This document shows, piece by piece, positions 10,390-30,211 of a stretch of DNA of 64,000 nt. A program made the translations under genes and the position numbers. Each line of letters opens with the position of its first letter. Within the stretch, counting starts at the first letter, position 1. The notes under the pieces were generated by a model. The model worked only from the letters and a program-made list of their open reading frames with translations, was not told the origin of the DNA and ran no database searches. This DNA is from Chloroflexota bacterium (GTDB lineage Bacteria > Chloroflexota > Anaerolineae > Anaerolineales > Villigracilaceae), in the NCBI GenBank assembly GCA_016191845.1, contig JACPVF010000003.1, positions 62,001-126,000 of the forward strand, in the 5' to 3' direction.

Positions 10390-10410
10390 GGGGCATTAAC
10401 CCCACTTATG
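10390..10410 (-). promoter_or_regulatory. palindromic operator-like motif (full site)
   Basis: GGGGCATTAACCCC (10390-10403) is a perfect palindrome flanked by ACTTATG. On the minus strand it reads CATAAGTGGGGTTAATG. It recurs before the kinase gene at 23393 (13 of 14 bases) and as a 15-of-17 copy before the octaheme cytochrome gene (20805-20821). It lies about 100 bases upstream of the ATG at 10292. Confidence 0.5.
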
Positions 10411-11059
10411 GTTTGATCAGACCCCTTCGGATTGCGTATTTCACCAGCTCGATGCGGTTGTGCAGTCCGAGTTTCCCCATCAGGTTTTCGCGGTGACGGG
10501 CTACCGTGTGTGGACTGATGACCAGTTCGGCAGCGATCTCGTCGTTGGTCTTCCCCTCCGCCAACAGCGCCAGGACCTCCCGTTCCCGCGGGGTCAGGTC
10601 ACCCAGGCTGGCGGTCTGCACCTCGTCATCCTCCCGCACCAGGAAATCCTTGACCAGCAGTTTTGCCAGCGATGGATAGATGTAAACGTCGCCACGGTGC
10701 GCCGCGCGAATGGCAGCAATCAGGTCATCGGGGGCGGCCCGCTTGGGCACGTACGCAGAGGCCCCCACCCGCAGCATCTCGAAGAAATATTGCTGATCCT
10801 CATGAATGGTTAGTGCCACCACCGCCATCTGGGGGTGGACCTGTTTGAGGCGGCGGGTCACCTCGATGCCCGAAAGGTCGGGCAGGGTGATGTCCATGAT
10901 GACCACATCCGGCTGGAGTTCATCGGCCAGTGCAAGCGCCTGCGTCCCATTCCCTGCCTCACCGACCAACAGCAGATCAGACTCATTCTCCAGCAACATA
11001 CGCAAACCGCTGCGTACCACGGCATGATCGTCCACCAGCAAGAGTCGAATTTCAGCCAT
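10406..11059 (-). CDS. NarL/FixJ-type response regulator (pair 1)
   Basis: 217 residues. The receiver domain has DDH at the start, the phospho-acceptor Asp in VVIMDITLPDLSG (about 55) and the lysine in YVPKRA. A LuxR-type helix-turn-helix at about residues 150-210 starts at LTPREREVLALLAEG, with recognition helix HTVARHRENLMGKLGLH. Its start overlaps the kinase gene by 8 bases, so kinase and regulator are coupled. The DNA-binding helix nearly matches that of the second regulator at 24855, which suggests shared targets. Confidence 0.93.
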   Translation of the reverse strand: MAEIRLLLVDDHAVVRSGLRMLLENESDLLLVGEAGNGTQALALADELQPDVVIMDITLPDLSGIEVTRRLKQVHPQMAVVALTIHEDQQYFFEMLRVGASAYVPKRAAPDDLIAAIRAAHRGDVYIYPSLAKLLVKDFLVREDDEVQTASLGDLTPREREVLALLAEGKTNDEIAAELVISPHTVARHRENLMGKLGLHNRIELVKYAIRRGLIKP

Positions 11060-12506
11060 GCGTTTCCCTTTCGAGCGGCACCATCACCTCCACCAGCGTG
11101 CCCATCCCAGGTTCGGATCGGATTACGCACGCACCGCCCACCAATGCAGCGCGTTCCTGGATCCCGAGCAATCCCCAACACGGATATTCACGCCGCGTGA
11201 GGGCCATGTCCACGTCGAAGCCGCAGCCCTTGTCCTCGACGTGAATGCTGACCTCCGCCCCACGGAAGAGAATCTGCACCTCGGCCCGGTCTGTTTTGGC
11301 GTGGCGGACGACATTGGTCACGCACTCCTGCACGATGCGATAGAGGACGGTGCGCACCTCGAGAGGAAGTTCCACCTCCTCTCCCTGACTGGAAACCCCC
11401 ACCGCGACCCCGGTCCGCTCCCCCATCTGGGCGGCATACCAACGCACGGCGGCCACCAGCCCAAAATCGTCCAATTGGGGCGGATGTAAACCGGTGATCA
11501 GATTCTGCAAACCGAACAAACCGGTCGCCACCACACCCTGCAATTCGCGCGCCTGCTTCGGAATCCGCTCGGAATGTAGAACGACATTGTCACTGATGGC
11601 GCGCAATCCCATACCAAGCGCGGTCAGGGTCTGGCCCACTTCATCGTGCAGCTCACGGGCGATGCGCTGGCGTTCCAACTCCTGCGCGCGGACCGTCTGC
11701 CGCAGCAACTCCTCGCGCAGTTCCTCCAGCCGACGACGTTCAGCCAGCTGAGCCTGGCTCAGTGTCTCGATCTGACGACGCGTCTCTTCCTCAAAGGCGC
11801 GCAGCGAACGGATGATCGCAACAGCGGCGATACAGGCCATCACCGAACGGAAGAGTTGAATGCGAAAGCCGAACCATGCAAGGAAGGTGTCTGCATTGAG
11901 GAAGCCTGACGGGAAGACCACGCTCCTGGCGGCAAAGAGTTGCCCCACCCCTCCATACAGACCGAAAGCAACCGCCGCGATGATCACATCCCGCCCAAAA
12001 TCGCTCATCCCCGCCTGCAGGAATTTCTGCCGCTGCAAGAACAATCCCCAGGCGGCCAGAGCTGCGCCGGGGATGGCCAACGAATAGCGGGTATACACAT
12101 CCGCCGCGACAAGACGCTGGAGCGGAGACTCGGTCAAGAACAGCCAGATCAGTCCCACGGTCCAGACGAGGGCAATGACACCGAGCAATTGCCAGGCCAG
12201 GCGGGCACGGGTTGACCCCACTACCAGGCGTGCGCCGAATTGGATCAGAAATAGGAAAGAGACCGCCAGCAAGATCACCCGTCCCGGCCCGATCCACGCA
12301 GACAACGCAGACGCATCCATCGGCGGGTGGATGAGCAGGAACATTTCCAGCCACTCGTGCGTGCCGTGCACCAGCCCAAAACCCGCCAGGGAGCGCAGGG
12401 CGCGCGCAAAATCCTGCTCGGAGGAACGCCCTACCTCCAGCAGGATGGCCAGCCCCATGCTGAAAAAAGACAACCCATACAGGAAGTACACGGTGATGAT
12501 GTCCAT
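11052..12506 (-). CDS. membrane sensor histidine kinase, NarX/DesK type (pair 1)
   Basis: 484 residues. About seven transmembrane helices occupy residues 1-230, with an intramembrane-edge motif HGTHEW near residue 50. A coiled coil follows, then the HisKA_3 dimerisation box (RQRIARELHDEVGQTLTAL, phospho-His in ELHDE) and an HATPase domain (DKGCGFDVD, GLLGIQERA). The signal is unknown; the His-containing membrane domain could sense a redox carrier, haem or gas. The paralogous kinase at 23393 has the same membrane domain. It forms an operon with the regulator, on the left edge of the cytochrome island. No clear ribosome site precedes the ATG. Confidence 0.92.
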   Translation of the reverse strand: MDIITVYFLYGLSFFSMGLAILLEVGRSSEQDFARALRSLAGFGLVHGTHEWLEMFLLIHPPMDASALSAWIGPGRVILLAVSFLFLIQFGARLVVGSTRARLAWQLLGVIALVWTVGLIWLFLTESPLQRLVAADVYTRYSLAIPGAALAAWGLFLQRQKFLQAGMSDFGRDVIIAAVAFGLYGGVGQLFAARSVVFPSGFLNADTFLAWFGFRIQLFRSVMACIAAVAIIRSLRAFEEETRRQIETLSQAQLAERRRLEELREELLRQTVRAQELERQRIARELHDEVGQTLTALGMGLRAISDNVVLHSERIPKQARELQGVVATGLFGLQNLITGLHPPQLDDFGLVAAVRWYAAQMGERTGVAVGVSSQGEEVELPLEVRTVLYRIVQECVTNVVRHAKTDRAEVQILFRGAEVSIHVEDKGCGFDVDMALTRREYPCWGLLGIQERAALVGGACVIRSEPGMGTLVEVMVPLERETHG

Positions 12507-12619: not shown

Positions 12620-13876
12620 TTACTTTTCAGGCGCGCCCGCGTCGAGCCAGGCCTTGATCTTGGCGATCTCGTCAGCCAGCAATGCAGCATAGGGGTGTTT
12701 GCCGCTCTCGAACTTGACGATCATCGGGCTGTTGGCCGAGTCGCTGGGGATGAAGACCGGGCCGGTGGCGCCGCCCTTCATTGCGTCAGCATAAGAGGAG
12801 AGCATCAATCCGCCCGAAGCCGATGGGCCGTGACACATCAGACATTTCTGCGCCAGCATGGGACCGATAATGGCGTCCCAGGTGGGTGCGGAGGACGATG
12901 CCTCTGGGGTGCCGGTCGGAGCTGCAGGCGAGGACTCCGACGAGGGCTGGGTGGCAGGCACGGGTGTTGCGGTCGGGACCGGGGTATTCGTCGGCGTGAG
13001 TGTAGGTGACGGGGTGGGCGTCTGCGGCACGTAGACGGGGATGGTCGGTTCGAAGTTTGGGACAGACACGGCTGTCGTCTCGTGCCCCACGAAGAAGTAG
13101 AACCCATAACTGAATAACGCCAGGATGACGATGGCAATAGGCGCGTAGAGATACTGTCGCTTGCGCAACACCGCCGGCGGGATGGGCTCTGGCTGCTTGC
13201 CCGAATTGATCTGTGCCAGTTCGGCGGGATGCTCGTGCTCCATCTCCTCCTGGCTCATCTTGCCGGTGAACATGCTCAAGTTAAGATGCTTGATGTGCAC
13301 ATGGTAGAAGTGCCAGATGATGATGGCCAGCACGGCCAGCACAGCCTCGGCTCCGTGCGCAGCCTTGGCAGCAGGGATGGCTTCGCCCGGCAGGATGCGC
13401 AGGGTGGTGAGCGGGTTCCACATCATGAAGCCGGTCAAGCCCATCACGACCGTGCCCCAGATCAATGCCAGGTACTCGGCCTTTTCGGCGTACGAGTAGC
13501 GGCCGTAATACGCCTTATGCTTGCGCAGACCAAGGTAATACAGCACGTCTTCGTATACGTGGAGGATGTCGTTGATCCACGGGATCATGGTGATGGGCGT
13601 GCGCAGCACCATCACGCGGTAGAGCACTTCCAACACGTGGAAGACGCTCACGATCATCATCACGATGGCCGAGGTGTGATGGATGAGCCGTGCCGTTTCG
13701 ATGCCGCCCAACAACCTGAAGAAGCCCAGGCTGATGGGAGAATCAGGAAACTTCTGCGGCAGGCCCGTGAAACCCAGCACCGTGAACGAGATCAGAAACA
13801 CGATATGCTGGAGCCGCTGGATGAGATCAAAACGGACGTAGGCCTTTGTGGCGGAGGCCTGGGATTTCTCAGTCAT
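12620..13876 (-). CDS. four-helix cytochrome b fused to a monohaem cytochrome c domain
   Basis: 418 residues from MTEKSQAS: an aaggagg site lies 6 bases before this ATG, which overlaps the upstream stop; the longer frame adds 8 residues without a site. Residues about 20-240 form a four-helix cytochrome b (b561/formate dehydrogenase gamma type) with likely haem histidines in LIHHTSA and IIWHFYHVHIKHL. A fifth helix and a Thr/Pro linker lead to one CLMCH haem site in a domain like those of Planctomycete-type cytochromes. It probably passes electrons between menaquinol and the nonahaem partner. It is a paralogue of the gene at 15296. Confidence 0.88.
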   Translation of the reverse strand: MTEKSQASATKAYVRFDLIQRLQHIVFLISFTVLGFTGLPQKFPDSPISLGFFRLLGGIETARLIHHTSAIVMMIVSVFHVLEVLYRVMVLRTPITMIPWINDILHVYEDVLYYLGLRKHKAYYGRYSYAEKAEYLALIWGTVVMGLTGFMMWNPLTTLRILPGEAIPAAKAAHGAEAVLAVLAIIIWHFYHVHIKHLNLSMFTGKMSQEEMEHEHPAELAQINSGKQPEPIPPAVLRKRQYLYAPIAIVILALFSYGFYFFVGHETTAVSVPNFEPTIPVYVPQTPTPSPTLTPTNTPVPTATPVPATQPSSESSPAAPTGTPEASSSAPTWDAIIGPMLAQKCLMCHGPSASGGLMLSSYADAMKGGATGPVFIPSDSANSPMIVKFESGKHPYAALLADEIAKIKAWLDAGAPEK

Positions 13877-15299
13877 TGTGGGCCTCCTTGTCCTCGTCAT
13901 TGGATCCCTCGGGAGCGGGCGATTCGCCTTCGGCGGATTCCACTTCGACTTGCTCGGGCTCCTCTAGACCCACAGTTGGTTCCGCTTCGACGGCTTCTGC
14001 CTCGGCTGGCGGCGGGACTTCCTCGACCGGCGGAGTCTCCTCCTCCGCCTTCGGCGTCTCGGCCGGGGCGGCTTCCTCCACCGGGGCGGGCGGCACCGGT
14101 GCGGACGGCTCTTCATGCTTTACGACAGGCTTCGGCTTGCGGAAGCGGTTGATCATCATGCGCGTGAAGTCCATCACCACCAGGAGGCCCATCGAACCCA
14201 GCACGCCGGGGATCATGAACTTATAGAACAGGTTGATGTAATACACAACCGGGTACTTCTCCGGTGAGGGGATGTAATGCGACATCCACGCGTCGGGGAA
14301 GTTGGCCGTCGCATCCGGATGACAGGCCTGACACTTCTTCAGTAGATTCTCGCGCACAGCCAAGCCCTTGGCGGGATCATCAATCCGCATAATGTCGTGC
14401 GTGCCGTGGCAGTCCGTGCAGACCGGCTTGTTGGTGGGCTGGTCGGGAAATTCCTTGCTGAAGATCTCCACCGTGGTACCGTGGAAGTCGGACACGTAGG
14501 TGCTCAACACCTGCGTAGACAGGCCGTACTTCCTCATCAAAGTCTCGTCGGTGTGACACTTGGCGCACAGGGAGGGCACGCTGTTGCGGAAACTGGCCGT
14601 TGTGGGGCTTTGGATATTGTGCACCCCATGGCAATCCACGCAGGTCGGCACATCCAGGTTGCCTTCCTGGGTCAGCGCCGCGCCGTGGACGCTTTGTGCA
14701 TACACGCCATAGATGGCGTTATGACACTTGGCGCAGGTGTTGGGAATTTCCAAGCGCGCTTCGGGCAACAGCTTGCCGGTTGCAGGATCGGTCATCGGTT
14801 TCTGCGTGTGCGGGTTATGACAATCCGCGCAGACGGCCGCATTCTGGTTGCCAGCCGCCAGGGCCTTCTGATGGACACTGTCCATCGCCAGGGCGGATTG
14901 GTCTGAATGGCACTGGGTACAGGAGGCGGAGAAAGTCAACGTCACTTCGCGCAGCGATTGAACTTTGCGATCCGGGTGCGGGAAGCCGGTGATATCAGTA
15001 TGGCAGGACGTGCAGGCCACCTCGTTGGTGCCATGCACACTGGCTCCAAAGGCCTCAGAGTCGATGGTCAATTGCAGGGTCTCGCCGCTGTCCAACCCGA
15101 CCTTCATGCCCGCCTGCGAGTGGCAGGATAGACACAGGCTATTATCCGCCGCCTGGGGATGAGGGGCAGGCTGGTTAACGGAAACAGCCGCACGGTCCAT
15201 GAAGCTGGGACCGGCGGAGGCCGACGACAGGGCGAATCCAAAACTGACGAGGCAGGCCACTAGGCCCGCCACGAAGAGCAGGTTGCGGAGTCGCATCAC
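13869..15299 (-). CDS. nonahaem cytochrome c, membrane anchored, with acidic Pro-rich tail
   Basis: 476 residues: signal peptide, then nine CxxCH sites (CLSCH, CTSCH, CTQCH, CADCH, CAKCH, CVDCH, CAKCH, CTDCH, CQACH). One transmembrane helix follows at about 350-370, and a Glu/Pro-rich tail of about 90 residues would be cytoplasmic. All sites are CxxCH; the catalytic CxxCK of nitrite reductase NrfA is absent, so electron transfer is more likely than catalysis. It is a clear paralogue of the cytochrome at 16003, sharing its haem spacing and a CHGVHNIQ segment. It overlaps both neighbours by 4-8 bases. Confidence 0.9.
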   Translation of the reverse strand: MMRLRNLLFVAGLVACLVSFGFALSSASAGPSFMDRAAVSVNQPAPHPQAADNSLCLSCHSQAGMKVGLDSGETLQLTIDSEAFGASVHGTNEVACTSCHTDITGFPHPDRKVQSLREVTLTFSASCTQCHSDQSALAMDSVHQKALAAGNQNAAVCADCHNPHTQKPMTDPATGKLLPEARLEIPNTCAKCHNAIYGVYAQSVHGAALTQEGNLDVPTCVDCHGVHNIQSPTTASFRNSVPSLCAKCHTDETLMRKYGLSTQVLSTYVSDFHGTTVEIFSKEFPDQPTNKPVCTDCHGTHDIMRIDDPAKGLAVRENLLKKCQACHPDATANFPDAWMSHYIPSPEKYPVVYYINLFYKFMIPGVLGSMGLLVVMDFTRMMINRFRKPKPVVKHEEPSAPVPPAPVEEAAPAETPKAEEETPPVEEVPPPAEAEAVEAEPTVGLEEPEQVEVESAEGESPAPEGSNDEDKEAHND

Positions 15300-16006
15300 T
15301 TCCTCTCTCCTGACTGGCCGGCGAGACGCTCGTATTCTTTCTCGTGATAGGTTCGCATCTCCTCTTCGCTTAGTCGGCCCGTGAACATGCTCAGGTTCAG
15401 GCGTTCGATGTGAACGTGATAGATGTGCCAGATGAGGATGAAGATCGCCAGGACAACCGACTCGGTGCTATGAGCCAGTTTCGCGGCGGGCACCACCCCA
15501 CCCGGCAGGAAGCTGGTGGCCTGGATGGGGAACCAGATGATCAATCCACTGATGCCCATGATGGCCACACTGAAGAAGACCACCCAGTAGGTGACCTTCT
15601 GCTCGAAGTTATAACGGCCGAACCTCGGTTTATCCTTGCGCAGGAAGAGCAGATACTGGATCATGTGCCAGGCGTCGCGCAGGTCCTGCATGGTGGGCAG
15701 CAGATCGCCCGGCAGGCTGCGGCGGCTCATCAACACCAGGATGCGTCCCAAATGGTAGATCACCACCAGGCTGAGGAGGATGGCCGCGGCGTGATGAATG
15801 TTTTGGATCAGGAAGACCTGGTCTGGCGTGGCGAGCAGATCCTGGCTGATGGAGAACTCGCGGTATTTTTGGGGCAGGCCAGTCAGCAACAAGACCAGGA
15901 TGCTCAGGAACAGGAGGGCATGTTCCCAACGCTGACCGAGCGTAAAGCGCAGGAAGGTTCGTTCCTGCCGGGCAAGCGGGGTGGATTTGGCTTGTGTTCC
16001 GCTCAT
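15296..16006 (-). CDS. four-helix cytochrome b membrane subunit
   Basis: 236 residues, four transmembrane helices, with histidines in WEHALLF, IQNIHHAAA and LIWHIYHVHIERL that would hold two b haems. It shares TGLPQK, FGRYN and LNLSMFTG..SEEEM with the cytochrome b at 12620, so the two are duplicates; this copy lacks the fused cytochrome c. The expected role is menaquinol oxidation (or menaquinone reduction) for the nonahaem partner encoded just upstream. Genes overlap by 4 bases on both sides. Confidence 0.88.
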   Translation of the reverse strand: MSGTQAKSTPLARQERTFLRFTLGQRWEHALLFLSILVLLLTGLPQKYREFSISQDLLATPDQVFLIQNIHHAAAILLSLVVIYHLGRILVLMSRRSLPGDLLPTMQDLRDAWHMIQYLLFLRKDKPRFGRYNFEQKVTYWVVFFSVAIMGISGLIIWFPIQATSFLPGGVVPAAKLAHSTESVVLAIFILIWHIYHVHIERLNLSMFTGRLSEEEMRTYHEKEYERLAGQSGERK

Positions 16007-17115
16007 GGCCGGTTACTCCTCACGCGATCAACAGTGTTTCGAATAATTTGCAAGATGACGTAGATGACGCACACCCATAAAACGAACGGGGTAAAGGAAC
16101 CATAAAACTTGTCCACGTAGAAGAGGAAGGGCGTGCGCTCCAGGCTGATTGGGTTGTGGCCGGTCCAGGCGTCGGTCCAGTTGGGACCCGCGTTTGGGTG
16201 GCACTGACGGCACGTATTCAGCAGGTTCTTCGGATTCACCTTCGAAGACGGGTCGCCCGTCGAACGGATGTCGTGGATGCCGTGGCAGTCGGAGCAGACC
16301 GCGCTGTCGTGCCAAATGGTGGGCCAGCGCGCCTTGTACACGGAAACGTCCACACCATGCCAGGAGCGCTTATAGATATCATACACATCTGAGGACAGGC
16401 CGTACTTGTCCATCAATTCCTTGTTCGCATGGCAGCCCGCACACAGTTCCGGCTCGGCCACGCGGAACTGGCTCGTACGCGGGTCCTGGATATTATGCAC
16501 ACCGTGACAAGTGGTGCAAACCGGCACATCGGGATTTTCATCCTTCATCAAGGCTGCGCCATGCACACTCTGTTTATAGGTCTCCACGATCTGGCTGTGG
16601 CACTGCCCGCAAGTCTCCGAGATCAGCGAACGCGGCTCGTCGGGCGGGCGGATGTCGTGCGCGCCGTGGCAGTCCGTGCAGACGGGGGCGTTCTGGTTCC
16701 CTGCTGCCGCAGCCTGGGCGTGCATGCTATCCTGGGTCTTCTGATAATTCGAAGAGTGACACTTCTCACAGGTCTGATAATAAGAAAGCGAAAGTTCCCG
16801 CTTTGTCTGGAACTTGATTGCGGGGTGCGGGTACTCGGAAATATCGTTATGGCAGGCCTCGCACTCGATGCCGACGGCGCTGTGGACAGAATGCCGCAGG
16901 TCATCCTCAGCAATGTAGAGTGAAAGTTTCTCGCCGCTGGGAAGCGTGGTGCTCAATGTGGGATCGCCGTGGCAGGTCAGACAATACTTCACCGTCTCCT
17001 GCCCGGTCGGCTTTGCGCTGGCAGGCGACACCACAAATAAAAGACTGATCACCACAGCGGTCACGCCAGCAGCGATCAACCAAAAGACCTGCCGATGAAA
17101 GGTACGCGGTGTCAT
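16003..17115 (-). CDS. nonahaem cytochrome c, membrane anchored
   Basis: 370 residues: N-terminal signal helix, nine CxxCH sites (CLTCH, CEACH, CEKCH, CTDCH, CGQCH, CTTCH, CAGCH, CSDCH, CRQCH) and a C-terminal transmembrane helix (PFVLWVCVIYVILQII). It is paralogous to the protein at 13869 but lacks its acidic tail. It probably sits on the outer face of the membrane and exchanges electrons with the cytochrome b at 15296. No catalytic haem variant is visible. It is the second gene of a five-gene operon. Confidence 0.9.
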   Translation of the reverse strand: MTPRTFHRQVFWLIAAGVTAVVISLLFVVSPASAKPTGQETVKYCLTCHGDPTLSTTLPSGEKLSLYIAEDDLRHSVHSAVGIECEACHNDISEYPHPAIKFQTKRELSLSYYQTCEKCHSSNYQKTQDSMHAQAAAAGNQNAPVCTDCHGAHDIRPPDEPRSLISETCGQCHSQIVETYKQSVHGAALMKDENPDVPVCTTCHGVHNIQDPRTSQFRVAEPELCAGCHANKELMDKYGLSSDVYDIYKRSWHGVDVSVYKARWPTIWHDSAVCSDCHGIHDIRSTGDPSSKVNPKNLLNTCRQCHPNAGPNWTDAWTGHNPISLERTPFLFYVDKFYGSFTPFVLWVCVIYVILQIIRNTVDRVRSNRP

Positions 17116-17118
17116 GGG

Positions 17119-17364
17119 CTACGACTCCTTGTTTTTTTCGACAGTGGACTTCCCACCCTGGACCTCAGAGCGGGTCGCTGCTATTTCATTCTGGGCCGCG
17201 CCCCCATTCTCCTCACGGTCATCGGGCGGCTCGGGCGCTTCGGGCGCCACCAGCCCTATTTTACGGAGCAGGTAGGAAACCCCGAACAGAACCGCAAGCG
17301 GGATAACGCAGCGCAGGATGAACAGCAAGGCCACAAAAATTGGGCTGGCAGTTGTGTCATTCAT
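17119..17364 (-). CDS. small single-helix membrane protein, first gene of cytochrome operon
   Basis: 81 residues from MNDTTASP, chosen because a ggaggg site lies 6 bases upstream; a longer frame from 17394 lacks one. One transmembrane helix (residues 8-30) is followed by a hydrophilic Pro/Glu-rich tail of about 45 residues. No family was recognised. It lies 3 bases before the nonahaem gene and leads the operon, so it may be a small assembly or docking subunit of the cytochrome b/c complex. Confidence 0.65.
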   Translation of the reverse strand: MNDTTASPIFVALLFILRCVIPLAVLFGVSYLLRKIGLVAPEAPEPPDDREENGGAAQNEIAATRSEVQGGKSTVEKNKES

Positions 17365-17459
17365 GGCGTTTCCCTCCACGGCAAGGCTTTCCAAAAGCTT
17401 GCAGCGAATTTGGCAGGCATTGCGTCTCCAGAATATGAGTGTGGGATTAAGTAATGGAT

Positions 17460-17504
17460 AGTATAACCCAAACCTGTCACATGAGAATATTGACAGATGT
17501 CACT
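17460..17504 (-). promoter_or_regulatory. promoter of the nonahaem/cytochrome b operon with CRP/FNR-like site
   Basis: On the minus strand AGTGACATCTGTCAAT (17489-17504) fits GTGA-N6-TCA of the CRP/FNR family. A likely -10 (TATACT, 17465-17460) puts the site centre about 43 bases before the predicted start, near the class II activator position. The -35 is poor, as expected for an activated promoter. By-eye prediction. Confidence 0.45.
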
Positions 17505-17513
17505 TATTACGTA

Positions 17514-17551
17514 GAAAAAAGAAAGGGCGGGTCTGAATGACCCGCCCTTTC
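17514..17551 (-). terminator. intrinsic terminator of the NrfD operon
   Basis: A 13-bp perfect stem (17521-17533 with 17539-17551). On the minus strand it is followed by T-rich sequence (complement of gtagaaaaaa). Confidence 0.88.
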
Positions 17552-17570
17552 CATGGAAGCATTTGAAAGG

Positions 17571-18797
17571 CTAATGTTCCTGGTGATTGAACAACGGCAG
17601 GAACCGCACACCCAACGTCAGCACGGTCAGGGCGTAACCGATCACGAGGATGCCCACTCCCCATTCCACCGGCGCAGGGAAATAGGTTCCAATTGGCAGT
17701 TGGAAGGAAGTGCCCGGTGTATAAGACAGGGGTACGAACAAGCCGCCAACGGTCACGTTCCAGCGGTGGATGATGATACCCGCCATTGCCGAGAGTCCGC
17801 CTAACACGGCGGCCGCCGGGTTACGGTTGAAACGAGGCACAAGGAACAGGACGGCGGGAACAAGGATTCCCAACAGCACCTCCCCCACCCAGAAACTGAA
17901 GCTGTATGGGGTCTGCTGTTGCAGGAGCGCAAATGCGGAGCTGACACCGGGTGTGCGGCCGTAATAGGTCACAGCAGCCATATCCCAGAATTTGATGTAG
18001 CCGTAGGCCAGCAGTCCCACGCCGCTGAAGCGGGCAATCAACTGCAACACATCATGCGGCACCGTGCGTTTGCGCATGATCCATTCCATTACGTAGGCCA
18101 CCGAGACAGTGACAGCGGGTCCGGCGGCGATGGCGGAGAGCACGAACATGATTGGCATGCTCGGCTTGAACCAGATCGGACGGGACTTGACGATGCCGTA
18201 CGTGGCACCCAGCGAGGACTGGTGCAACAGGGAGATTACGAGGCCCAGCACGGCCAGGAAGGGAGTCAATTTGTGTAGGAAATGCCCAAACTTGCGCAGG
18301 GCAGGCCAACGGTCGAAGAGTTTGGTCTCCACGATCACCGGCGCAAACTCGGTCACCAGGATCATCAGGTAGACCGTGATGCACATGGTCACTTCCCAAA
18401 GCACCGAGTGCACATTCCAAAACACCCAGGGATGCCAGAAGCGGTCCGGGCGGCCGATGTCCACCAACAGCATCAGCATCGCGGAAGTGTATCCCGCAAA
18501 ACCGACCAGCACCGCCAGTCGGATGATCGGCTGGAGGCGTTTGATGCCGAAGATGTACACGATGGCCGAGAGCGTGAACGCGCCTGCACCCAGGGCGATG
18601 GACGAGAGGTCCACCGTGATCCACAGACCCCACGGCACAGAGTCGGTCAGGTTCGTAATGACCAAGCCATGAATAAACACCTGAATGGCGGAATATACTC
18701 CGATCAGGAGCAACACAGCCAGGAAACCCAGCCAAACCAGAAAGACCGGGCTGAATGGCAATTGAAAAGACTTGCGAGGCAGCGTGGTGGTGGTCAT
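17571..18797 (-). CDS. NrfD/PsrC-type quinone-interacting membrane subunit
   Basis: 408 residues with about nine to ten transmembrane helices, typical of the NrfD/PsrC/HybB group. These proteins exchange electrons between (mena)quinol and an attached Fe-S subunit and carry no haem. Family-like segments include WGLWITVDLSSIALGAGAF and DIGRPDRFWHPWVF. The Fe-S subunit lies 1 base upstream and an octahaem cytochrome before it, so the three should form a quinol:cytochrome module, comparable in logic to NrfBCD or Qrc but not identical to either. Confidence 0.9.
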   Translation of the reverse strand: MTTTTLPRKSFQLPFSPVFLVWLGFLAVLLLIGVYSAIQVFIHGLVITNLTDSVPWGLWITVDLSSIALGAGAFTLSAIVYIFGIKRLQPIIRLAVLVGFAGYTSAMLMLLVDIGRPDRFWHPWVFWNVHSVLWEVTMCITVYLMILVTEFAPVIVETKLFDRWPALRKFGHFLHKLTPFLAVLGLVISLLHQSSLGATYGIVKSRPIWFKPSMPIMFVLSAIAAGPAVTVSVAYVMEWIMRKRTVPHDVLQLIARFSGVGLLAYGYIKFWDMAAVTYYGRTPGVSSAFALLQQQTPYSFSFWVGEVLLGILVPAVLFLVPRFNRNPAAAVLGGLSAMAGIIIHRWNVTVGGLFVPLSYTPGTSFQLPIGTYFPAPVEWGVGILVIGYALTVLTLGVRFLPLFNHQEH

Positions 18798-18798
18798 T

Positions 18799-19638
18799 TT
18801 ACAAACCCTCCTTGGGCGGGATGTAGTACACGCTGGCTTCCGTCCCCAGGTCTTCGCGCAGGCGGAAGGTGGGATTGGAAGCGATCACCTGGGCAACCTT
18901 GCTATTCGGGTCCTTGAGATTACCGAAGGTGCGTGCGCCGACCGGGCAGATTTCGACACAAGCCGGGGTAGCTTCACGATCTTCGCCGGGCACCAGGCCC
19001 TTGGCCAGACCCGCGTCAATGCGCTGCTTGCAGAAGGTGCATTTTTCGATCACACCACGCGGACGGCGTTCGATCTCGGGTTCGCCCCAGGCCGGGACGT
19101 AGGGATTCTCATCGGTGCGATCTTCCCAGTTGAACTGGCGCGCATCGTACGGGCACGCCACCTGGCAGTACCGGCAACCGATACAGCGATCATAGTCCAT
19201 GACCACCAGGCCGTCTTCGCGATGATAGGTCGCCTTGACGGGGCAAACCTCCACACAGGGAGCATTCTGGCAATGCAGGCACGGACGGGAGAGGAAGAAG
19301 GTGTGACCTGCCGAATTCTTTTCCTGGATCACCACGTTCCACGGATCGCTGGCAAGCACGTCATTGGTGGCAGTGCAAGCACGCATGCAGTATTCGCATC
19401 CGATGCACAGGTCCAGGTTGATGGCCATGCCCCAGTGATACTGACCCGTCTCCGCACCGTGACCGCCCGTGGTCTCGCCTTCCAATTGTTGTTGCTTCAA
19501 TTGGCCGAAGGGCGAGAGCGGACCCGTGGTGAGCAGTGGCGCCGCTACGATCGAACCGACCGTCGCAACCGCCAGCTTGACCACGTCACCGCGCGTCAGC
19601 TTGACGACGATCTTTTTCTTAACTGTCTTTTTCGCCAT
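18799..19638 (-). CDS. four-cluster ferredoxin subunit (NrfC/PsrB-like)
   Basis: 279 residues from MAKKTVKKK; a gaggaag site precedes this ATG, and the longer frame reads back into the upstream gene. Cysteine groups for four [4Fe-4S] clusters are present: CIGCEYCMRAC, CLHCQNAPCVEVCP, CIGCRYCQVACP and CTFCKQR...CVEICP. The N-terminus is Tat-like (KLTRGDVVKLAVATVGSIVAA) but has RG where RR is expected. It wires the NrfD subunit to the octahaem cytochrome. Start overlaps the upstream stop by 20 bases. Confidence 0.9.
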   Translation of the reverse strand: MAKKTVKKKIVVKLTRGDVVKLAVATVGSIVAAPLLTTGPLSPFGQLKQQQLEGETTGGHGAETGQYHWGMAINLDLCIGCEYCMRACTATNDVLASDPWNVVIQEKNSAGHTFFLSRPCLHCQNAPCVEVCPVKATYHREDGLVVMDYDRCIGCRYCQVACPYDARQFNWEDRTDENPYVPAWGEPEIERRPRGVIEKCTFCKQRIDAGLAKGLVPGEDREATPACVEICPVGARTFGNLKDPNSKVAQVIASNPTFRLREDLGTEASVYYIPPKEGL

Positions 19639-20635
19639 CTTCCTCAACCTCCACGAACTGGATGCGGCGGCTGACGACCCAGGCGGCAACCCCGCCCACG
19701 ATCAGCCCGACGATGGCGCCCTGCATCAGGCCCGTGTACAAACGTACGGTACTCTGGGCCTCAAGGCTTTGGATCTTCTGCTCCTGGTCTTGAACCTGCT
19801 TTTCCAGGTCACTGGTGCTGGGAGCGGTGCCGGCTGTCTGTCCGCTCAACTGCAGGATGGTGTCACGAGTGTGGACCGTGTCCTTGTGGCAGTTGATACA
19901 GGCATCCGAGCCAACCGAAAAGGTGTGGCCGGTGGCAAACAGGCCGCCCGTCGAGGTGGTATGCGAGGCGGTTGCCATGTGACAATCGCTGCACTGAAGG
20001 CCGGAATTGGCATGCGTCCCGTGGGTGAAGGACGTTCCCGTATCCTTATGGCAGTTGGTGCACAGGTCGTTTACGGTATCCGCACGAGGAGCCTGGGAGT
20101 GCGGGTTGTGGCAGGATTCGCAATTGATACCCGCCTGACCGTGGCGGCTGGCTTGCCATTCGTCCGTGGTGGTCTTGTGGCAGCGGGCGCACAGAGTGTA
20201 ATCCGGTGTAACCGGCATGGGATTCTTCGGATGATCTACCTGCATCGGGCCATGGCAGGATTCGCAGGTCACACCTTCTTCAGAATACTTGCCGGTGGCG
20301 GGATCAAAGCCGGTGGTATGGCATTCCAGGCAGGCATCAGCCGAACCTTGCTTGGTCCAATCCTCCTGAAAGACCGGGGACGAGAACGCCTGCGAATGGC
20401 GGGTCCCCATCCACGTATCATGAATGTCCTTGTGGCAGCCGGCGCAAGTGGAGGAACCAACATAGCTGGGAACTGCCGTGGGGGCGGCGGTTGGGGTGGC
20501 CGTGGCCTCCTGCGCAGAAGGAGCGGCTGCGGCGGGTTGGGCCAGGCTAATTGCTACGCCCAGCGCCAGGCAGAACGCAAAAACTGCGGCAAAGGTCATC
20601 CAGGCCGTTTTTCCGAGGTTGAGCTTTGTTTTCAT
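19619..20635 (-). CDS. octahaem cytochrome c, C-terminally anchored
   Basis: 338 residues: signal peptide ending near AQPAAAA, Thr/Pro linker, then eight CxxCH sites (CAGCH, CLECH, CESCH, CARCH, CESCH, CTNCH, CSDCH, CINCH) in a cytochrome c554/DmsE-like arrangement. A short coiled coil (KQVQDQEQKIQSLEAQ) and a C-terminal transmembrane helix follow. No CxxCK or other catalytic haem variant is seen, so electron transfer is likelier than substrate reduction. It leads the operon with the ferredoxin and NrfD genes; its promoter carries several regulatory motifs. Confidence 0.9.
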   Translation of the reverse strand: MKTKLNLGKTAWMTFAAVFAFCLALGVAISLAQPAAAAPSAQEATATPTAAPTAVPSYVGSSTCAGCHKDIHDTWMGTRHSQAFSSPVFQEDWTKQGSADACLECHTTGFDPATGKYSEEGVTCESCHGPMQVDHPKNPMPVTPDYTLCARCHKTTTDEWQASRHGQAGINCESCHNPHSQAPRADTVNDLCTNCHKDTGTSFTHGTHANSGLQCSDCHMATASHTTSTGGLFATGHTFSVGSDACINCHKDTVHTRDTILQLSGQTAGTAPSTSDLEKQVQDQEQKIQSLEAQSTVRLYTGLMQGAIVGLIVGGVAAWVVSRRIQFVEVEEDGEKDS

Positions 20636-20704
20636 TGTGGTTGCAATCTCCCGTTGGGTAAGATCTTACACTGTGTGTACATAAGGTTGGGGCGAACAGC
20701 ACAA

Positions 20705-20720
20705 TGTGTCTTTTATCACA
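20705..20720 (-). promoter_or_regulatory. CRP/FNR-like palindrome upstream of octahaem gene (proximal)
   Basis: TGTGT-CTTTTA-TCACA matches TGTGA-N6-TCACA at 9 of 10 half-site bases. It lies 70-85 bases before the ATG at 20635. If transcription starts from the TAAGAT at 20668-20663 its centre would be near -56; if it starts from the TAGAAT at 20742-20737 the site is just downstream. Confidence 0.45.
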
Positions 20721-20736
20721 ATTGGTCGTTAATCCT

Positions 20737-20779
20737 ATTCTAATTTATTGCCGCCGTTTGGACAGTGTTGAATATCACA
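20737..20779 (-). promoter_or_regulatory. octahaem promoter with distal CRP/FNR-like site
   Basis: On the plus strand AGTGT-TGAATA-TCACA (20764-20779) matches 8 of 10 half-site bases. A possible -10 (minus-strand TAGAAT, 20742-20737) predicts a start near 20730, placing the site centre at about -41.5, the class II activation position. By-eye prediction. Confidence 0.4.
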
Positions 20780-20804
20780 AAATCAATATGATTTACATTA
20801 AAGT

Positions 20805-20821
20805 CATCACCCCCACTTATG
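20805..20821 (-). promoter_or_regulatory. half copy of the GGGGTTAATGCCCC-type motif
   Basis: CATCACCCCCACTTATG matches the 10394-10410 copy (CATTAACCCCACTTATG) at 15 of 17 bases in the same orientation. The second half of the palindrome is not kept. Confidence 0.4.
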
Positions 20822-20824
20822 AAT

Positions 20825-20862
20825 AAAAATTAGCGGACGCCTTTTGGCGTCCGCTAATTTTT
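20825..20862. terminator. intrinsic terminator of the decahaem gene
   Basis: A 17-bp perfect stem (20825-20841 with 20846-20862) with a TTTT loop and A/T-rich arms, 19 bases after the stop of the gene at 20881. Confidence 0.9.
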
Positions 20863-20880
20863 CGATCCGTTCGACCGGGT

Positions 20881-23082
20881 TTACGGGCGAGAGAACTTGC
20901 TGATATCGCCGCCCAGATCTTCGATCGAGTCGATGATGATCTGGATCACGTACTTGCCGTTATGGACGGCAGCGCCCGGGTTCTTGCGCAGGAAGTTGAA
21001 GTTGTAGGCAGCCTTGAGCAGGCGGGGCGTCCAAGTGGTGAAGGCACCTTCGTCCGCATCGTGCTCGCCGTTTCCATTGGCATCCACGAACCAGTACGGG
21101 TAAGCGTTCGTATCGTACACGATCGCGTTGCCGGTCTTGGCCTTGGCATACTTCTGGATTTCGGAATACAGAACGTCGCGCAGGGAGCGATATTCGTCGC
21201 GGATGCCCTGGGTCACGTTGCCATCGCCGTTGTAATCAGCGGTGGAGCTCATGCCGCGGATATCGTCAACCGCAGTCTCGCCATGGCACTGCTTGCACAG
21301 TTCTTCCTTGGGAGTACCGTTATGGACATCGTGGCAGCCGACACAGCCAGGCTTGCCATCCACCGCCGGGTGCGGGTTGGCGCCGACGTAGGTCTTGCCA
21401 TCGTATTCATAGAAGCCCGAAGCATCGCCGCCGAACCAAACATTGGCAATGCCAAGGTAGTGGGCATTGATGAAGCCGAACTTCACATCGTTGCCATTGG
21501 CATCCTTGATAGGCTCAACAACCGTGTCGGGGTTTTCAGCAGCGCCGGAGAACTGGGCAATGCGATCATCCACAGACTTCTTGGAAGCGCGGCCCTGATG
21601 GCACATGATGCACAGGTTCGAATCGGCATTTTCGCCGTAGCTCACAACCTTGCCGGAGGGCAGGGTCACATCCTTGACCGCATAGCGGGCAGGGAAGTTC
21701 GCGCCGTCGTGGCAGGTCACGCACATGAGGCCGTTGCCAGCGGGGACGCCTTCTTCAGGAACATCCTTGCCAGCCAGGATCATGGGCAGGGCGGAACCGC
21801 TGTGGCACTTGGCGCAGGCAGCTTCGACCATGTAGGAGGGCTTGCCCTCGGAGTCCAAGTCCCAGTGGCGGAAGGCCGCAGCCGCGCCATCAAAGTGACC
21901 GGGATCTTCGCGGTTCAGGGTGGTGACATCGAACTTGGTGGTCAGCTTCTCGCTGGAATTGACATCCTCGATCGAGTCGTAGAGCAGTTCGATGATGTAC
22001 TTGCCGCCGTGGGCAAACGCACCGGGATCCTTGACGGAGACCTGGTAGTTGTAGGCAGCCTTCAACAGGCGGGGAGTCCAGTTCGGATAAGCCTTGCCAT
22101 CCGCGCCCATGAAGTAAGGATAGGTGGCGCCGTCGTACTTGATCTCAGCGCCGGCAACTTCCTTTCCGTAAGCCTGGATGGAGGAATACAGGATCTCCTG
22201 CAGACCGGCGATCTCGGAGGCCACGCCTTCGGTCACATCGCCATCGCCATCGTAGTCGCTGGCGGAAGAGGGTTCGCGGACGTTCTTCAGGTCATCAACG
22301 GTCTTGACATCCTGATGGCACTCACCACAGGCTTCGACCTTGACCTCGAGGCTGTGCTGGTCATGGCAGCCGATGCAGGTGTTGTAACCATCGACGTGAG
22401 CATGCTTCATGTCGTACAGCTTGCCATCGTACTCGTAGCCCATGTGGACCTGCGAGCCGTACAGCGTGCCGCCGGCAGCGAAGTAGTGCACGTTGCTGAA
22501 GGACAGTTGGACATCGTTGCCCTTGTCATCCTTGTAGGAAGCGGGGATGGCATCGGGGTTGAGGTTTTCGCCAAACTTGGCGAGTTTCTCATCCAGGCTC
22601 ACCTTGGACTCGCGTCCCTGGTGACAGGTCATACAACGAGCCTCTGGGCCGAGGTTCTCGATGACCGCGCCGGAGGGGAAGGTGACCGAGGTCAACTTGT
22701 CGGCGGCTTCATTATGGCACATGGTGCAGCTGAACGGCTTGCCAGGGGCAGGCACAGCAGCATCCACCTTGCCATCCTGAATGAAGTCGACAAAGCCGGC
22801 TTCGCTGTGGCACTTCGCGCAGGTGGTGGGAATTTCGGCCGGGGTGGCAGCATCCCAGTGCTTGAAGGCTTCGGCGGTGGCGTCGGCATGACCGGAAGCC
22901 TCAAAGATCGGCTTGATCGCTTCAGCAGGATCAGGCGTCGCTGTGGGCGGGACAGCAGTCGCTGTGGGCGGCACTTCAGTGGGGGCTTCAGTCGGTGCCG
23001 GGGTCGGGGTGGAGCAGGCAGCCAACACTGCGCCCACTACGAGGACCACGCCAAGAACGAGCAGTAACTTTTTCATTGGCAT
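20881..23082 (-). CDS. decahaem cytochrome c lipoprotein built of two pentahaem repeats
   Basis: 733 residues: signal peptide with lipobox VLAAC (lipid-anchored Cys near residue 22) and a Thr/Pro linker, then two homologous halves of about 330 residues. Half 1 has CAKCH, CTMCH, CMTCH, CIGCH, CGECH; half 2 has CAKCH, CVTCH, CIMCH, CVGCH, CKQCH. Each half then carries an EF-hand/dockerin-like calcium motif (DYDGDGDVTEG, DYNGDGNVTQG) and a WTPRLLKAAYN segment. It would sit on the outer face of the membrane as an electron carrier or terminal reductase; the acceptor is unknown. The first ATG is preferred (ggag 11 bases upstream). Confidence 0.88.
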   Translation of the reverse strand: MPMKKLLLVLGVVLVVGAVLAACSTPTPAPTEAPTEVPPTATAVPPTATPDPAEAIKPIFEASGHADATAEAFKHWDAATPAEIPTTCAKCHSEAGFVDFIQDGKVDAAVPAPGKPFSCTMCHNEAADKLTSVTFPSGAVIENLGPEARCMTCHQGRESKVSLDEKLAKFGENLNPDAIPASYKDDKGNDVQLSFSNVHYFAAGGTLYGSQVHMGYEYDGKLYDMKHAHVDGYNTCIGCHDQHSLEVKVEACGECHQDVKTVDDLKNVREPSSASDYDGDGDVTEGVASEIAGLQEILYSSIQAYGKEVAGAEIKYDGATYPYFMGADGKAYPNWTPRLLKAAYNYQVSVKDPGAFAHGGKYIIELLYDSIEDVNSSEKLTTKFDVTTLNREDPGHFDGAAAAFRHWDLDSEGKPSYMVEAACAKCHSGSALPMILAGKDVPEEGVPAGNGLMCVTCHDGANFPARYAVKDVTLPSGKVVSYGENADSNLCIMCHQGRASKKSVDDRIAQFSGAAENPDTVVEPIKDANGNDVKFGFINAHYLGIANVWFGGDASGFYEYDGKTYVGANPHPAVDGKPGCVGCHDVHNGTPKEELCKQCHGETAVDDIRGMSSTADYNGDGNVTQGIRDEYRSLRDVLYSEIQKYAKAKTGNAIVYDTNAYPYWFVDANGNGEHDADEGAFTTWTPRLLKAAYNFNFLRKNPGAAVHNGKYVIQIIIDSIEDLGGDISKFSRP

Positions 23083-23392: not shown

Positions 23393-24865
23393 ATGCCCAC
23401 TAAAGAACTGGTCCAATGGCTCTATCTGGTCTTCTTCATCTACGGGTTGGCCTTTTTTGCGATGGGCGTGGCTATGGCCCTGGAGTCGGGACGGCGGCTG
23501 GCTCTGGCCGATGCACGTGTACTGCGTCCGCTGGCAGCTTTTGGTCTCCTGCATGGAACCCACGAGTGGATGGAGTCCTATCTGCTCCAGGCACAAGCGG
23601 TGGGCACCCCGCTGGGAGTGCTTGTCACTCCATTTAAATTGATACTTCTGAGCTCTTCCTTTATCTGTTTGTTCCTGTTTGCTGTCAACCTGCTGCGCCT
23701 GACCTCCTCGAGGTCCGGACTGCCCCAATGGCACATTGTTATCTTTGGATCGTATGCAGTGTTGGTGTTAACCAGCGCCTCCCTCACCTACTCGATCATC
23801 CCAATCCCGTGGGCTAATTTGTTGGACGGACTGGCACGCTACCTGCTCGCTGTCCCCGCCTCGATGCTGGCCGCCCTGGCCCTGCGCGCACGCGGACTTC
23901 AGGCCCGCGCAGAGGACCGCCCTGCCCTGGAAAAATCTTTTTACCTGGCAGCCTTGGGCTTTGGGATCTATTCCGTCACCCAGGCCTTTGTTCATCCGCT
24001 GGAAATGTTTCCCGCCAACCTACTCAACGAGGAAAATTTCCTCGCCGCTAGCGGGTTCCCAATCCAAGTGATTCGCGCATCGACAGCACTCCTCATCACC
24101 TATGGATTACTGCGTGCTACACAGGCTGTAGAGGAAGAACGGAATCTGCAATTGTTTGCAGTTCAGCAGGCCCGCCTGCAAGCCCTGCAGCAACGCGATG
24201 AACTGCGGCGCGATCTGCTAAGACACACGGTTCAAGTTCAGGAAGAGGAACGTGCCCGCGTCGCGCGTGAACTCCACGATGAGACCGCCCAGATCCTTTC
24301 GGCCGCATCGTTGCACCTGGCAGCTCTTCGTGCCAGCCTCAAGCGCAAACCAGATGCCATTGCCATTGTGGAGCAGTTACAGGACCTCACCCGTCAGATT
24401 TCACACAGCCTGTATCGTCTGGTGCGGGACTTGCGGCCTGCCCATCTCGATGACCTGGGCCTGGTTCCGGCCCTGGACTTTTTGGTCGAAGACGCACGCG
24501 TTACCAAGGGCATGGATGTGAGTTTGACCGTGGAGGGCATGCCGCGCCGCATCGACGTATCCATCGAGACCATCCTGTTCCGAGTGACACAGGAGGCGCT
24601 CACTAACATTTTCCGCCATGCACAGACCCAACAGGGTCAAGTTCACCTGTGCTTCAGCGGAGACCAGGTCCGTTTGACGGTAACAGACCTGGGGCAAGGT
24701 TTTGATATCGAAGGTCCCTTCCACGCGCCGCGCGGCTGGGGTCTGGAGGGCATGCGGGAACGGATCGAGTCCGCAGGCGGCATCTTCCTCCTGACCTCGG
24801 CGGTCGGAAAAGGCACAACAGTGGAGGCGCTCATCCCGCTGCAAGGAGTCAACAATGACAATTAA
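23393..24865 (+). CDS. membrane sensor histidine kinase, NarX/DesK type (pair 2)
   Basis: 490 residues, a full-length paralogue of the kinase at 11052. About seven transmembrane helices include the shared FFIYGLAFFAMGVAMALESGR and HGTHEWME segments. A coiled coil follows, then HisKA_3 (EERARVARELHDETAQILSAA) and HATPase (DLGQGFDI, GWGLEGMRERIESAGG). The input signal is unknown. It overlaps its response regulator by 11 bases and is transcribed away from the decahaem gene, flanking the cytochrome island on the right as its paralogue does on the left. Confidence 0.92.
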   Translation: MPTKELVQWLYLVFFIYGLAFFAMGVAMALESGRRLALADARVLRPLAAFGLLHGTHEWMESYLLQAQAVGTPLGVLVTPFKLILLSSSFICLFLFAVNLLRLTSSRSGLPQWHIVIFGSYAVLVLTSASLTYSIIPIPWANLLDGLARYLLAVPASMLAALALRARGLQARAEDRPALEKSFYLAALGFGIYSVTQAFVHPLEMFPANLLNEENFLAASGFPIQVIRASTALLITYGLLRATQAVEEERNLQLFAVQQARLQALQQRDELRRDLLRHTVQVQEEERARVARELHDETAQILSAASLHLAALRASLKRKPDAIAIVEQLQDLTRQISHSLYRLVRDLRPAHLDDLGLVPALDFLVEDARVTKGMDVSLTVEGMPRRIDVSIETILFRVTQEALTNIFRHAQTQQGQVHLCFSGDQVRLTVTDLGQGFDIEGPFHAPRGWGLEGMRERIESAGGIFLLTSAVGKGTTVEALIPLQGVNNDN

Positions 24866-25544
24866 TCTCATGCTTGTGGACGATCACGATGTGGTTCGCA
24901 CCGGGCTTCGTTCGTTTCTGGATACCCAGCCCGGAATGCGCGTGGTGGCCGAAGCACGCGACGGGCAGGAAGCCCTGAAACTGGCAGCCCAGACGAAACC
25001 GCAAATCGTGTTGATGGACATCACCATGCCCAGCATGGACGGTCTGGAGGCAACTCGTCGATTGAAGGCGGAGCTACCCGAGTGTCTGGTACTGGCCCTG
25101 ACCGTACACGAGGACAAGCAATATTTTATGGAAATGCTGGCGGCGGGCGCTTCGGGATATCTGACCAAGCAGGCCGCAGCCGACGAACTGGTATCGGCCA
25201 TCCATGCCGTGGCGGCAGGCAACGTGTACCTTCAGCCCGCGCTGGCCCGCTGGTTGCTGGAAGATTATCAGCGCCTGGCCCGGCAGGTGGGAATCCAACC
25301 ACGTGTGCAAACCGAGGAACAGGAAGAAGGCATGATCGGCCTGGATGCACTCAGCGCGCGCGAGCGCCAGGTGCTCGAGTTGGTGGGCCAGGGCTTGAAC
25401 AACCACCAGATCGGGGAAAGGCTCAACCTGAGTCACAAGACCGTAGCCCGTCACCGTGAGCGTATCATGGCCAAGCTCAAGATGCACTCGCGCACCGAGT
25501 TGGTCAAGTTTGCCATCCGCACCGGGTTGATCACGTTGGAGTAG
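24855..25544 (+). CDS. NarL/FixJ-type response regulator (pair 2)
   Basis: 229 residues: receiver domain with DDHD, phospho-acceptor Asp in IVLMDITMPSMDG (about 54) and YLTKQA lysine. A LuxR-type helix-turn-helix begins at LSARERQVLELVGQG, with recognition helix KTVARHRERIMAKLKMH. This region closely matches the first regulator (TVARHRE..M.KL..H.R.ELVK.AIR.GLI), hinting at overlapping operators. It is coupled to the kinase gene by overlap; the ccm operon starts about 220 bases later. Confidence 0.93.
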   Translation: MTINLMLVDDHDVVRTGLRSFLDTQPGMRVVAEARDGQEALKLAAQTKPQIVLMDITMPSMDGLEATRRLKAELPECLVLALTVHEDKQYFMEMLAAGASGYLTKQAAADELVSAIHAVAAGNVYLQPALARWLLEDYQRLARQVGIQPRVQTEEQEEGMIGLDALSARERQVLELVGQGLNNHQIGERLNLSHKTVARHRERIMAKLKMHSRTELVKFAIRTGLITLE

Positions 25545-26247: not shown

Positions 26248-26254
26248 GCGAAAC

Positions 26255-26290
26255 AACCTGGCAGGGCAAGCCCTGTCAGGTTTTCATTTG
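26255..26290 (+). terminator. leaky terminator or attenuator between ccmE and ccmF
   Basis: A 12-bp stem with one G-T pair (26255-26266 with 26271-26282) is followed by TTTTCATTT, 16 bases before the ccmF ATG. It could set a higher level of CcmE than of downstream proteins. Confidence 0.65.
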
Positions 26291-26305
26291 TAACGAGGAG
26301 AAATC

Positions 26306-28531: not shown

Positions 28532-28552
28532 GTCCACGCAGGAGAATGTGAT

Positions 28553-29053: not shown

Positions 29054-29063
29054 AATCCCTCGC

Positions 29064-29084
29064 CTCCCGATTCACAATCGGGAG
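29064..29084 (+). other. intercistronic hairpin between ccmH and thioredoxin gene
   Basis: A 9-bp perfect stem (ctcccgatt / aatcgggag) with a CAC loop and no T-run. It may protect or process the mRNA rather than terminate it. Confidence 0.45.
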
Positions 29085-29101
29085 TGGGGCAGGAGAATGC
29101 A

Positions 29102-29674: not shown

Positions 29675-29684
29675 AGGGGCAAGC

Positions 29685-30200: not shown

Positions 30201-30211
30201 TAAGAGACCTT

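Follow-up and report, generated by a model that had tools for sequence, protein, structure and literature searches.

Respiratory modules that link quinones to multihaem cytochromes have been described in several organisms. CbcL of Geobacter sulfurreducens, located in the inner membrane and quinone-linked, is a fused, nine-haem version that runs outward (PMC9129911), and quinone:cytochrome c oxidoreductase clusters, which combine b-type or NrfD/iron-sulfur (Fe-S) modules with multihaem cytochromes, are known from Methanoperedenaceae (PMC7327174) and as CbcSTU and SirCD (PMC11434368). In monoderm iron reducers, OcwA of Thermincola potens (6i5b, PMC6703420) and OmhA of Carboxydothermus ferrireducens (an undecahaem cytochrome of the S-layer, 6qvm, PMC7829351) serve as surface cytochromes. 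OcwA contains open CxxCH haems and no CxxCK, and it reduces nitrite and hydroxylamine, the former at about 1 per minute, far below NrfA (PMC6703420). The Chloroflexota isolate Ardenticatena maritima is capable of anodic and cathodic electron transfer and has a surface heptahaem cytochrome (PMC5808234). Multihaem-rich Anaerolineae, even with octahaem operons that include dimethyl sulfoxide reductase-type subunits, have already been reported (Hug 2013, PMC3971608; PMC7399161), and genome surveys found many multihaem cytochromes in Anaerolineales but left respiration with extracellular acceptors open (PMC7399161). Here, we analysed a 64-kb stretch of an Anaerolineales genome (Chloroflexota; GCA_016191845.1, contig JACPVF010000003.1, forward-strand positions 62,001 to 126,000), called the window below and numbered from its first letter. 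It contains an island of multihaem cytochrome genes (12620–23082, minus strand) that we interpret, with slightly better than even confidence, as a set of quinone-linked modules through which a monoderm bacterium exchanges electrons with its surroundings by way of a multihaem protein at the cell surface.

Gene content of the multihaem island

All nine genes of the island lie on the minus strand. A motif count per open reading frame (ORF) gave 37 CxxCH and zero CxxCK motifs in five ORFs: one in b561 subunit 1 (12620–13900), nine each in nonahaem cytochromes a (13869–15299) and b (16003–17115), eight in an octahaem cytochrome (19619–20635), and ten in a decahaem lipoprotein (20881–23082). The remaining motif-bearing long ORFs of the window have one CxxCH each. 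Judged from the alignments, chance is excluded as the source of the haem motifs because their columns are conserved across orthologues. Pfam assigned b561 (PF01292) to 12620–13900 and to subunit 2 (15296–16006), besides a monohaem PSCyt1 tail, NrfD (PF03916), and 4Fe-4S domains, while neither Pfam nor curated models revealed a catalytic domain or subunit inside the island. These data agree with the haem inventory of an earlier, sequence-only reading of this DNA (9, 9, 8, 10, and 1 motifs, two b-type subunits, an Fe-S/NrfD pair, and no CxxCK). All eight proteins named there are real, but a ninth was overlooked, a small protein of 91 amino acids with one transmembrane (TM) helix (17119–17394), which matched no Pfam family and adjoins nonahaem b in relatives.

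Three transcription units are plausible, comprising the decahaem gene, the octahaem, Fe-S, and NrfD genes, and the genes for the 91-residue protein, nonahaem b, b561 subunit 2, nonahaem a, and the b561-monohaem protein, because a terminator-like hairpin (17552–17520, minus strand; 14 pairs, 9 of them G-C, T-rich tail) follows the NrfD gene and 245 bp separate the decahaem and octahaem genes. The genes of the third unit overlap or are 3 bp apart. Terminator prediction overall was not above chance (15 found vs. 12.9 in shuffles), and the argument is one strong, well-placed hairpin. The three leftward operons proposed earlier are compatible with this arrangement.

Nonahaem cytochromes and b561 subunits

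The two nonahaem proteins share 39% identity. Besides the nine haem motifs, each has a signal and a C-terminal TM helix as a predicted anchor, which in nonahaem a is followed by an acidic tail. Nine further His residues are invariant among 36 sequences of the family, making one available per haem motif, which can fit a predicted bis-His ligation of all nine c haems. The model of nonahaem b was predicted with a pLDDT of 86.4, but no fold family is claimed for these proteins because the structural matches are loose (HAO, Z 9.6 with a root mean square deviation (rmsd) of 12; MtrA, Z 6.4). No plasmid relative of nonahaem b was found.

The b561 subunits are likewise paralogues (36% identity). Subunit 1 carries a Thr/Pro-rich linker and a C-terminal monohaem PSCyt1 domain (PF07635), a tail that is missing in some relatives, and subunit 2 is an FdnI-like, predicted dihaem b protein (PF01292, 61.9 bits). 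Their profile aligns with Escherichia coli FdnI (1kqf_C, E 5.9e-17), and the columns matching H18, H57, H155, and H169 of FdnI, its haem-b ligands, are invariant in 17 b561 sequences. At the column of N110, near the quinone site of FdnI, subunit 2 and most homologues have Asn and subunit 1 of the window has Ser. Membership in a formate dehydrogenase was ruled out, as both subunits missed the TIGR01583 equivalog cut-off of 115.85 bits (81.7 and 44.8 bits) and the island encodes no molybdopterin formate dehydrogenase.

The NrfD module and the decahaem lipoprotein

The second unit encodes an NrfD-type integral membrane subunit (17571–18797; PF03916, 116 bits), presumed to be quinone-reactive, a ferredoxin-type Fe-S subunit with 4Fe-4S domains that is predicted to be exported (18799–19638), and the octahaem cytochrome, which has a signal, a C-terminal TM helix, and Cytochrome_C554 and C7 domains. 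NrfD is 39–89% identical to its relatives, and its closest curated model is QrcD (292.5 of 570 bits). The Fe-S protein, which likely starts at the ATG at 19638 and not at the TTG at 19689, comes closest to DsrO (190 of 200 bits) and QrcC (184.3 of 400 bits). Its twin-arginine signal has RR in most relatives, which places the protein outside the membrane; the motif is degraded in the window, where it reads RG, and in G017, a genome of the window's closest group, where it reads RS. The octahaem profile matched OcwA (E 2.4e-16) and MtrA (E 5.3e-14). Since the octahaem orthologues have seven invariant further His residues for eight haems, and a Met (Met140) conserved in 94%, the alignment indicates that one haem is His/Met-ligated or open. 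A standard Nrf system was ruled out because the island has no CxxCK NrfA and both NrfC (130 of 377.6 bits) and NrfD (41.3 of 347.6 bits) fell below the equivalog cut-offs, and a Qrc complex because QrcD and QrcC missed theirs, an octahaem protein stands in place of the hexahaem QrcA, and a QrcB-type molybdopterin protein is missing. Close homologues with a proven function in a known complex, for which it gave Nrf and Qrc as examples, were among the findings that the sequence-only reading expected to overturn it.

The decahaem protein consists of a lipobox, a Thr/Pro-rich spacer, and two tandem pentahaem halves that are 41% identical (E 2e-79), indicating a tandem duplication. The lipobox (A22-C23) is kept in at least 90% of 34 orthologues. 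As single-protein queries, neither this protein nor NrfD matched PDB sequences, and no sequence match between the decahaem protein and OcwA was detectable. In a confident AlphaFold2 model (pLDDT 85.6), half 1 resembles OcwA most closely (Z 11.5, rmsd 3.8 over 219 residues), followed by 6qvm, the undecahaem cytochrome of the S-layer (Z 11.0), and by NrfA (Z 10.7); rmsd values were 3.8–4.0 over 219–252 residues, and unrelated structures had Z < 4. Foldseek by itself also ranked OcwA first for half 1, although not significantly (E 0.14). Based on the model, half 1 has an NrfA-type pentahaem fold, closest to those of OcwA and 6qvm, a likeness that gives the best clue to the function of the protein. 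A weak sequence match (E 0.007–0.008) aligns its first haem with the catalytic one of NrfA, His taking the place of Lys. Each half has five haems and five invariant further His residues (10 in all). Bis-His ligation of all ten haems was considered and dropped, because NrfA has an active-site His that is no haem ligand, so that a count of five invariant His per half is no proof of as many ligands; an open haem could be hidden in a half. Each half also contains an EF-hand-like loop (DYDGDGDVTEG and DYNGDGNVTQG), which suggests structural calcium.

Conservation and co-occurrence in Chloroflexota

For comparison, 80 named loci were fetched with the nonahaem family; hence, the co-presence of nonahaem a and b was not used as evidence. 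All 80 are named as Chloroflexota, mostly Anaerolineae or Anaerolineales and a few under other Chloroflexota names. A b561 gene stands beside nonahaem a in 78 of them, and the loci further contain genes for NapC-type heptahaem (n = 43), decahaem-type (n = 37, 35 of them strong), NrfD (n = 30), and nonahaem b (n = 16) proteins. G017, which belongs to the window's own family, has the same gene order as the island, and the cultured Bellilinea caldifistulae GOMI-1 encodes decahaem, nonahaem, and b561 proteins in a row (L132). Some relatives have added modules, including a NapC-type heptahaem protein with a PSCyt1 tail and a cytochrome b accompanied by a fusion of a PetD-like protein with seven c haems (L039:2219–3943; L054:4938–7043; L134:13274–13933).

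Among 249 genomes of the class, the modules occurred together more often than expected, which bears out the co-occurrence that the sequence-only reading had asked to be checked. NrfD was found with nonahaem in 21 genomes (10.3 expected, p 1.6e-5) and with decahaem in 24 (7.2 expected, p 1.5e-12), and 47 genomes had both nonahaem and decahaem (23.6 expected, p 4.5e-12). The three modules were present together in 18 genomes, whereas that reading would have been contradicted by operons that never occur together. These p-values are too small because the genomes are related; collapsed to families, whose number was taken as about 69, nonahaem and decahaem co-occurred in 15 (p 5.5e-4). The NrfD module occurs in 28 genomes, fewer than the nonahaem-b561 pair (92) or the decahaem protein (64), and fewer loci contain the second nonahaem-b561 pair than the first, so the arrangement in the window looks like a build-up in some lineages.

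Cell envelope and further cytochromes of the host

Omp85 was not matched in the host genome, although 7 of 14 controls gave a match, and S-layer homology (SLH) domains were matched 70 times. Because of these two results, the predicted envelope fits a monoderm with an S-layer, in line with the cell without an outer membrane assumed in the sequence-only reading. The genome also encodes a haem-copper oxidase, an alternative complex III cluster, and, elsewhere, an NrfHA that has its own NapC-type quinol dehydrogenase. All of these need quinone, as does the island, yet MenB, MenD, and MqnC were not above cut-off.

Three further multihaem loci were observed in the host genome (G000). On contig C11, a heptahaem cytochrome is fused to SLH domains (L059:9477–11234); three of 61 genomes (G000, G001, and G025) have its haem part, and it is a candidate S-layer-bound surface cytochrome that might carry electrons further. 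Contig C15 encodes a 910-residue protein in which a heptahaem part is fused to a b561 domain, as in CbcL, beside an octahaem protein with a PF11783 Cytochrome_cB domain (L061:6998–11188), and a similar pair is located near the NrfD module in the relatives' loci L044 and L071. With 15 CxxCH motifs in 412 residues, a cytochrome on contig C5 (L063:8199–9437) is a haem wire of very high density.

Proposed electron transfer and alternative explanations

Gene content, conservation, linkage, haem-ligand conservation, and predicted fold were observed or computed, and from these we infer the partners in the complexes, the direction of transfer, the quinone type, and the acceptor. Two paralogous complexes, each composed of a dihaem b561 of the FdnI type and a membrane-anchored nonahaem protein, would exchange electrons with the quinone pool, passing them from quinone over the b561 haems to the nonahaem protein, and in a third complex they would move from the quinone pool through NrfD and the Fe-S protein to the octahaem cytochrome. 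The separate quinone entry points of the sequence-only reading are retained here, given the conserved FdnI ligands and the NrfD family assignment, but there are three such modules instead of two, two of them paralogous. Beyond the membrane subunits, nonahaem and octahaem proteins would presumably deliver electrons to the decahaem lipoprotein and thus outward, to an extracellular acceptor such as a mineral, a shuttle, the S-layer cytochrome, or a partner cell. FdnI itself carries electrons inward, from the outer side of the membrane to a quinone site close to the cytoplasmic side. With a quinone site placed likewise, the b561 complexes would conserve energy inward and spend proton-motive force outward, making their use in both directions plausible.

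Several points weigh against this reading. In the 99%-complete host genome, no match to the MenB, MenD, or MqnC models exceeded its cut-off, leaving menaquinol, the electron partner named in the sequence-only reading, unproven. An exposed position of the decahaem protein is predicted from its lipobox and the monoderm envelope, its reaction with solids or other extracellular acceptors is presumed, and the NrfA fold is also found in reductases of soluble substrates. In many genomes, nonahaem or decahaem proteins are encoded without the NrfD module, and in a study on electrode reactors, Anaerolineales were mostly planktonic (PMC7399161).

Respiration with a soluble acceptor is an unlikely alternative, in which the complexes would serve as quinol dehydrogenases for a reductase whose gene lies elsewhere, or an open haem of the octahaem or decahaem protein would itself be the site at which a small molecule such as nitrite or hydroxylamine is reduced. 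The missing eighth His of the octahaem protein and its OcwA- and c554-like similarity are consistent with this, as are the weak alignment of decahaem haem 1 with the NrfA catalytic haem and the vicinity of the NrfD module to b561-heptahaem and PF11783-type octahaem proteins in L044 and L071, the domain having been seen on the host-genome copy. However, the host's NrfHA is already served by its NapC-type dehydrogenase, and clustering of neighbouring genes in relatives yielded no conserved terminal reductase. The absence of CxxCK also speaks against a reductase and had been used in the sequence-only reading to argue against nitrite, hydroxylamine, or tetrathionate reduction; the absence holds, but the argument is weak and not decisive, because OcwA reduces nitrite and hydroxylamine with CxxCH haems only, albeit with the slow nitrite turnover mentioned above (PMC6703420).

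Alternatively, the b561-nonahaem complexes could work mainly inward, conserving energy from electrons taken up from minerals, electrodes, or partner cells, with the NrfD module belonging to another chain. The FdnI homology with its conserved haem-b ligand columns would allow this, and the haem-copper oxidase and NrfA could drain the quinone pool, but direction is not readable from sequence and cultured relatives such as Bellilinea, a strict anaerobe, are described as fermenters. Cathodic transfer is known from A. maritima (PMC5808234), whereas the closest analogue that has been characterised, CbcL, transfers electrons outward (PMC9129911), and we consider predominant uptake improbable. Very improbable, in our view, are ordinary quinol:cytochrome c oxidoreductases feeding the oxygen-reducing oxidase: the oxidase is present and genes for cytochrome c maturation adjoin the island, but the genome already has the alternative complex III cluster, long chains of bis-His haems suit low-potential electron transfer, and Bellilinea, a cultured carrier of the core, is strictly anaerobic.

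Sediments, sludge, and methanogenic reactors harbour abundant Anaerolineales, which are usually regarded as fermenters. It is possible, though less likely than not, that Anaerolineae have a widespread monoderm machine of their own for extracellular electron transfer. Its surface protein would be the duplicated pentahaem lipoprotein with the NrfA fold, and its link to quinone would be a split nonahaem-b561 complex, reversible and similar to FdnI and CbcL. With it, many presumed fermenters of the class would exchange electrons with minerals or partner cells. As the decahaem-nonahaem-b561 core is present in cultured B. caldifistulae, extracellular respiration is testable in pure culture. The predicted decahaem fold suggests that, besides Thermincola and Carboxydothermus, a third monoderm lineage has recruited the NrfA pentahaem core for use at the cell surface.

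Neighbouring genes and regulation

The island is flanked by two two-component systems with HisKA_3/HATPase_c kinases, which would be dedicated to it and probably control it. System 1 (10406–12506, minus strand; response regulator 10406–11059, membrane histidine kinase 11052–12506) adjoins the octahaem-FeS-NrfD module in many relatives, and system 2 (23393–25544, plus strand; kinase 23393–24865, response regulator 24855–25544) is divergent from the decahaem gene, as in several relatives. The two kinases are paralogous (36% identity) and have in common a membrane sensor domain that no Pfam family covers, in which the His, Glu, and Trp of an HGxHEW motif are conserved; it is possibly a redox, haem, or quinone sensor. 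A PHROGs search gave a single match, over the kinase domain of a flanking kinase. Directly beside the island (25765–32110) are genes for CcmE, CcmF, CcmH, thioredoxin-like proteins, and a class I cytochrome c. Ccm genes are also common neighbours in relatives, some of which have a Rieske/cytochrome b complex there, as seen by neighbour-gene clustering.

Comparison with known systems

By gene order and conserved adjacency, the island encodes b-type and NrfD/Fe-S modules together with multihaem cytochromes, as the quinone:cytochrome c oxidoreductase clusters do. Like those of Methanoperedenaceae and CbcSTU/SirCD, it has a b-type protein beside a multihaem cytochrome, and NrfD with 4Fe-4S and multihaem proteins, but their b-type clusters have 6 haems and the clusters are separate, whereas the island links both types with a decahaem lipoprotein. 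Compared by description, CbcL shares the nine bis-His c haems outside the membrane, which are predicted in the island, and the b-type membrane part. In contrast to this single polypeptide of a diderm, the island has separate, overlapping genes, a nonahaem protein with its own TM anchor, and two paralogous pairs. Qrc menaquinone reductase and NrfBCD also combine multihaem, Fe-S, and NrfD-type membrane proteins, but the island lacks a QrcB-type molybdopterin protein and NrfA, and its subunits miss the curated cut-offs.

At the surface, OcwA and OmhA have the NrfA-type pentahaem core predicted for the decahaem half. OcwA fuses one pentahaem unit to a c554-like tetrahaem part, while the decahaem protein of the island has two tandem pentahaem units on a lipid anchor. 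The reports on the same class (Hug 2013, PMC3971608) and from bioanodes (PMC7399161) contain, in their available parts, gene lists without a linked island, a nonahaem-b561 pair, or a duplicated pentahaem fold. Quinol:multihaem clusters and multihaem-rich Anaerolineales are thus already published; new here is a monoderm in which split, duplicated nonahaem-b561 complexes are linked both with an NrfD-octahaem module and with a lipoprotein made of a duplicated pentahaem unit.

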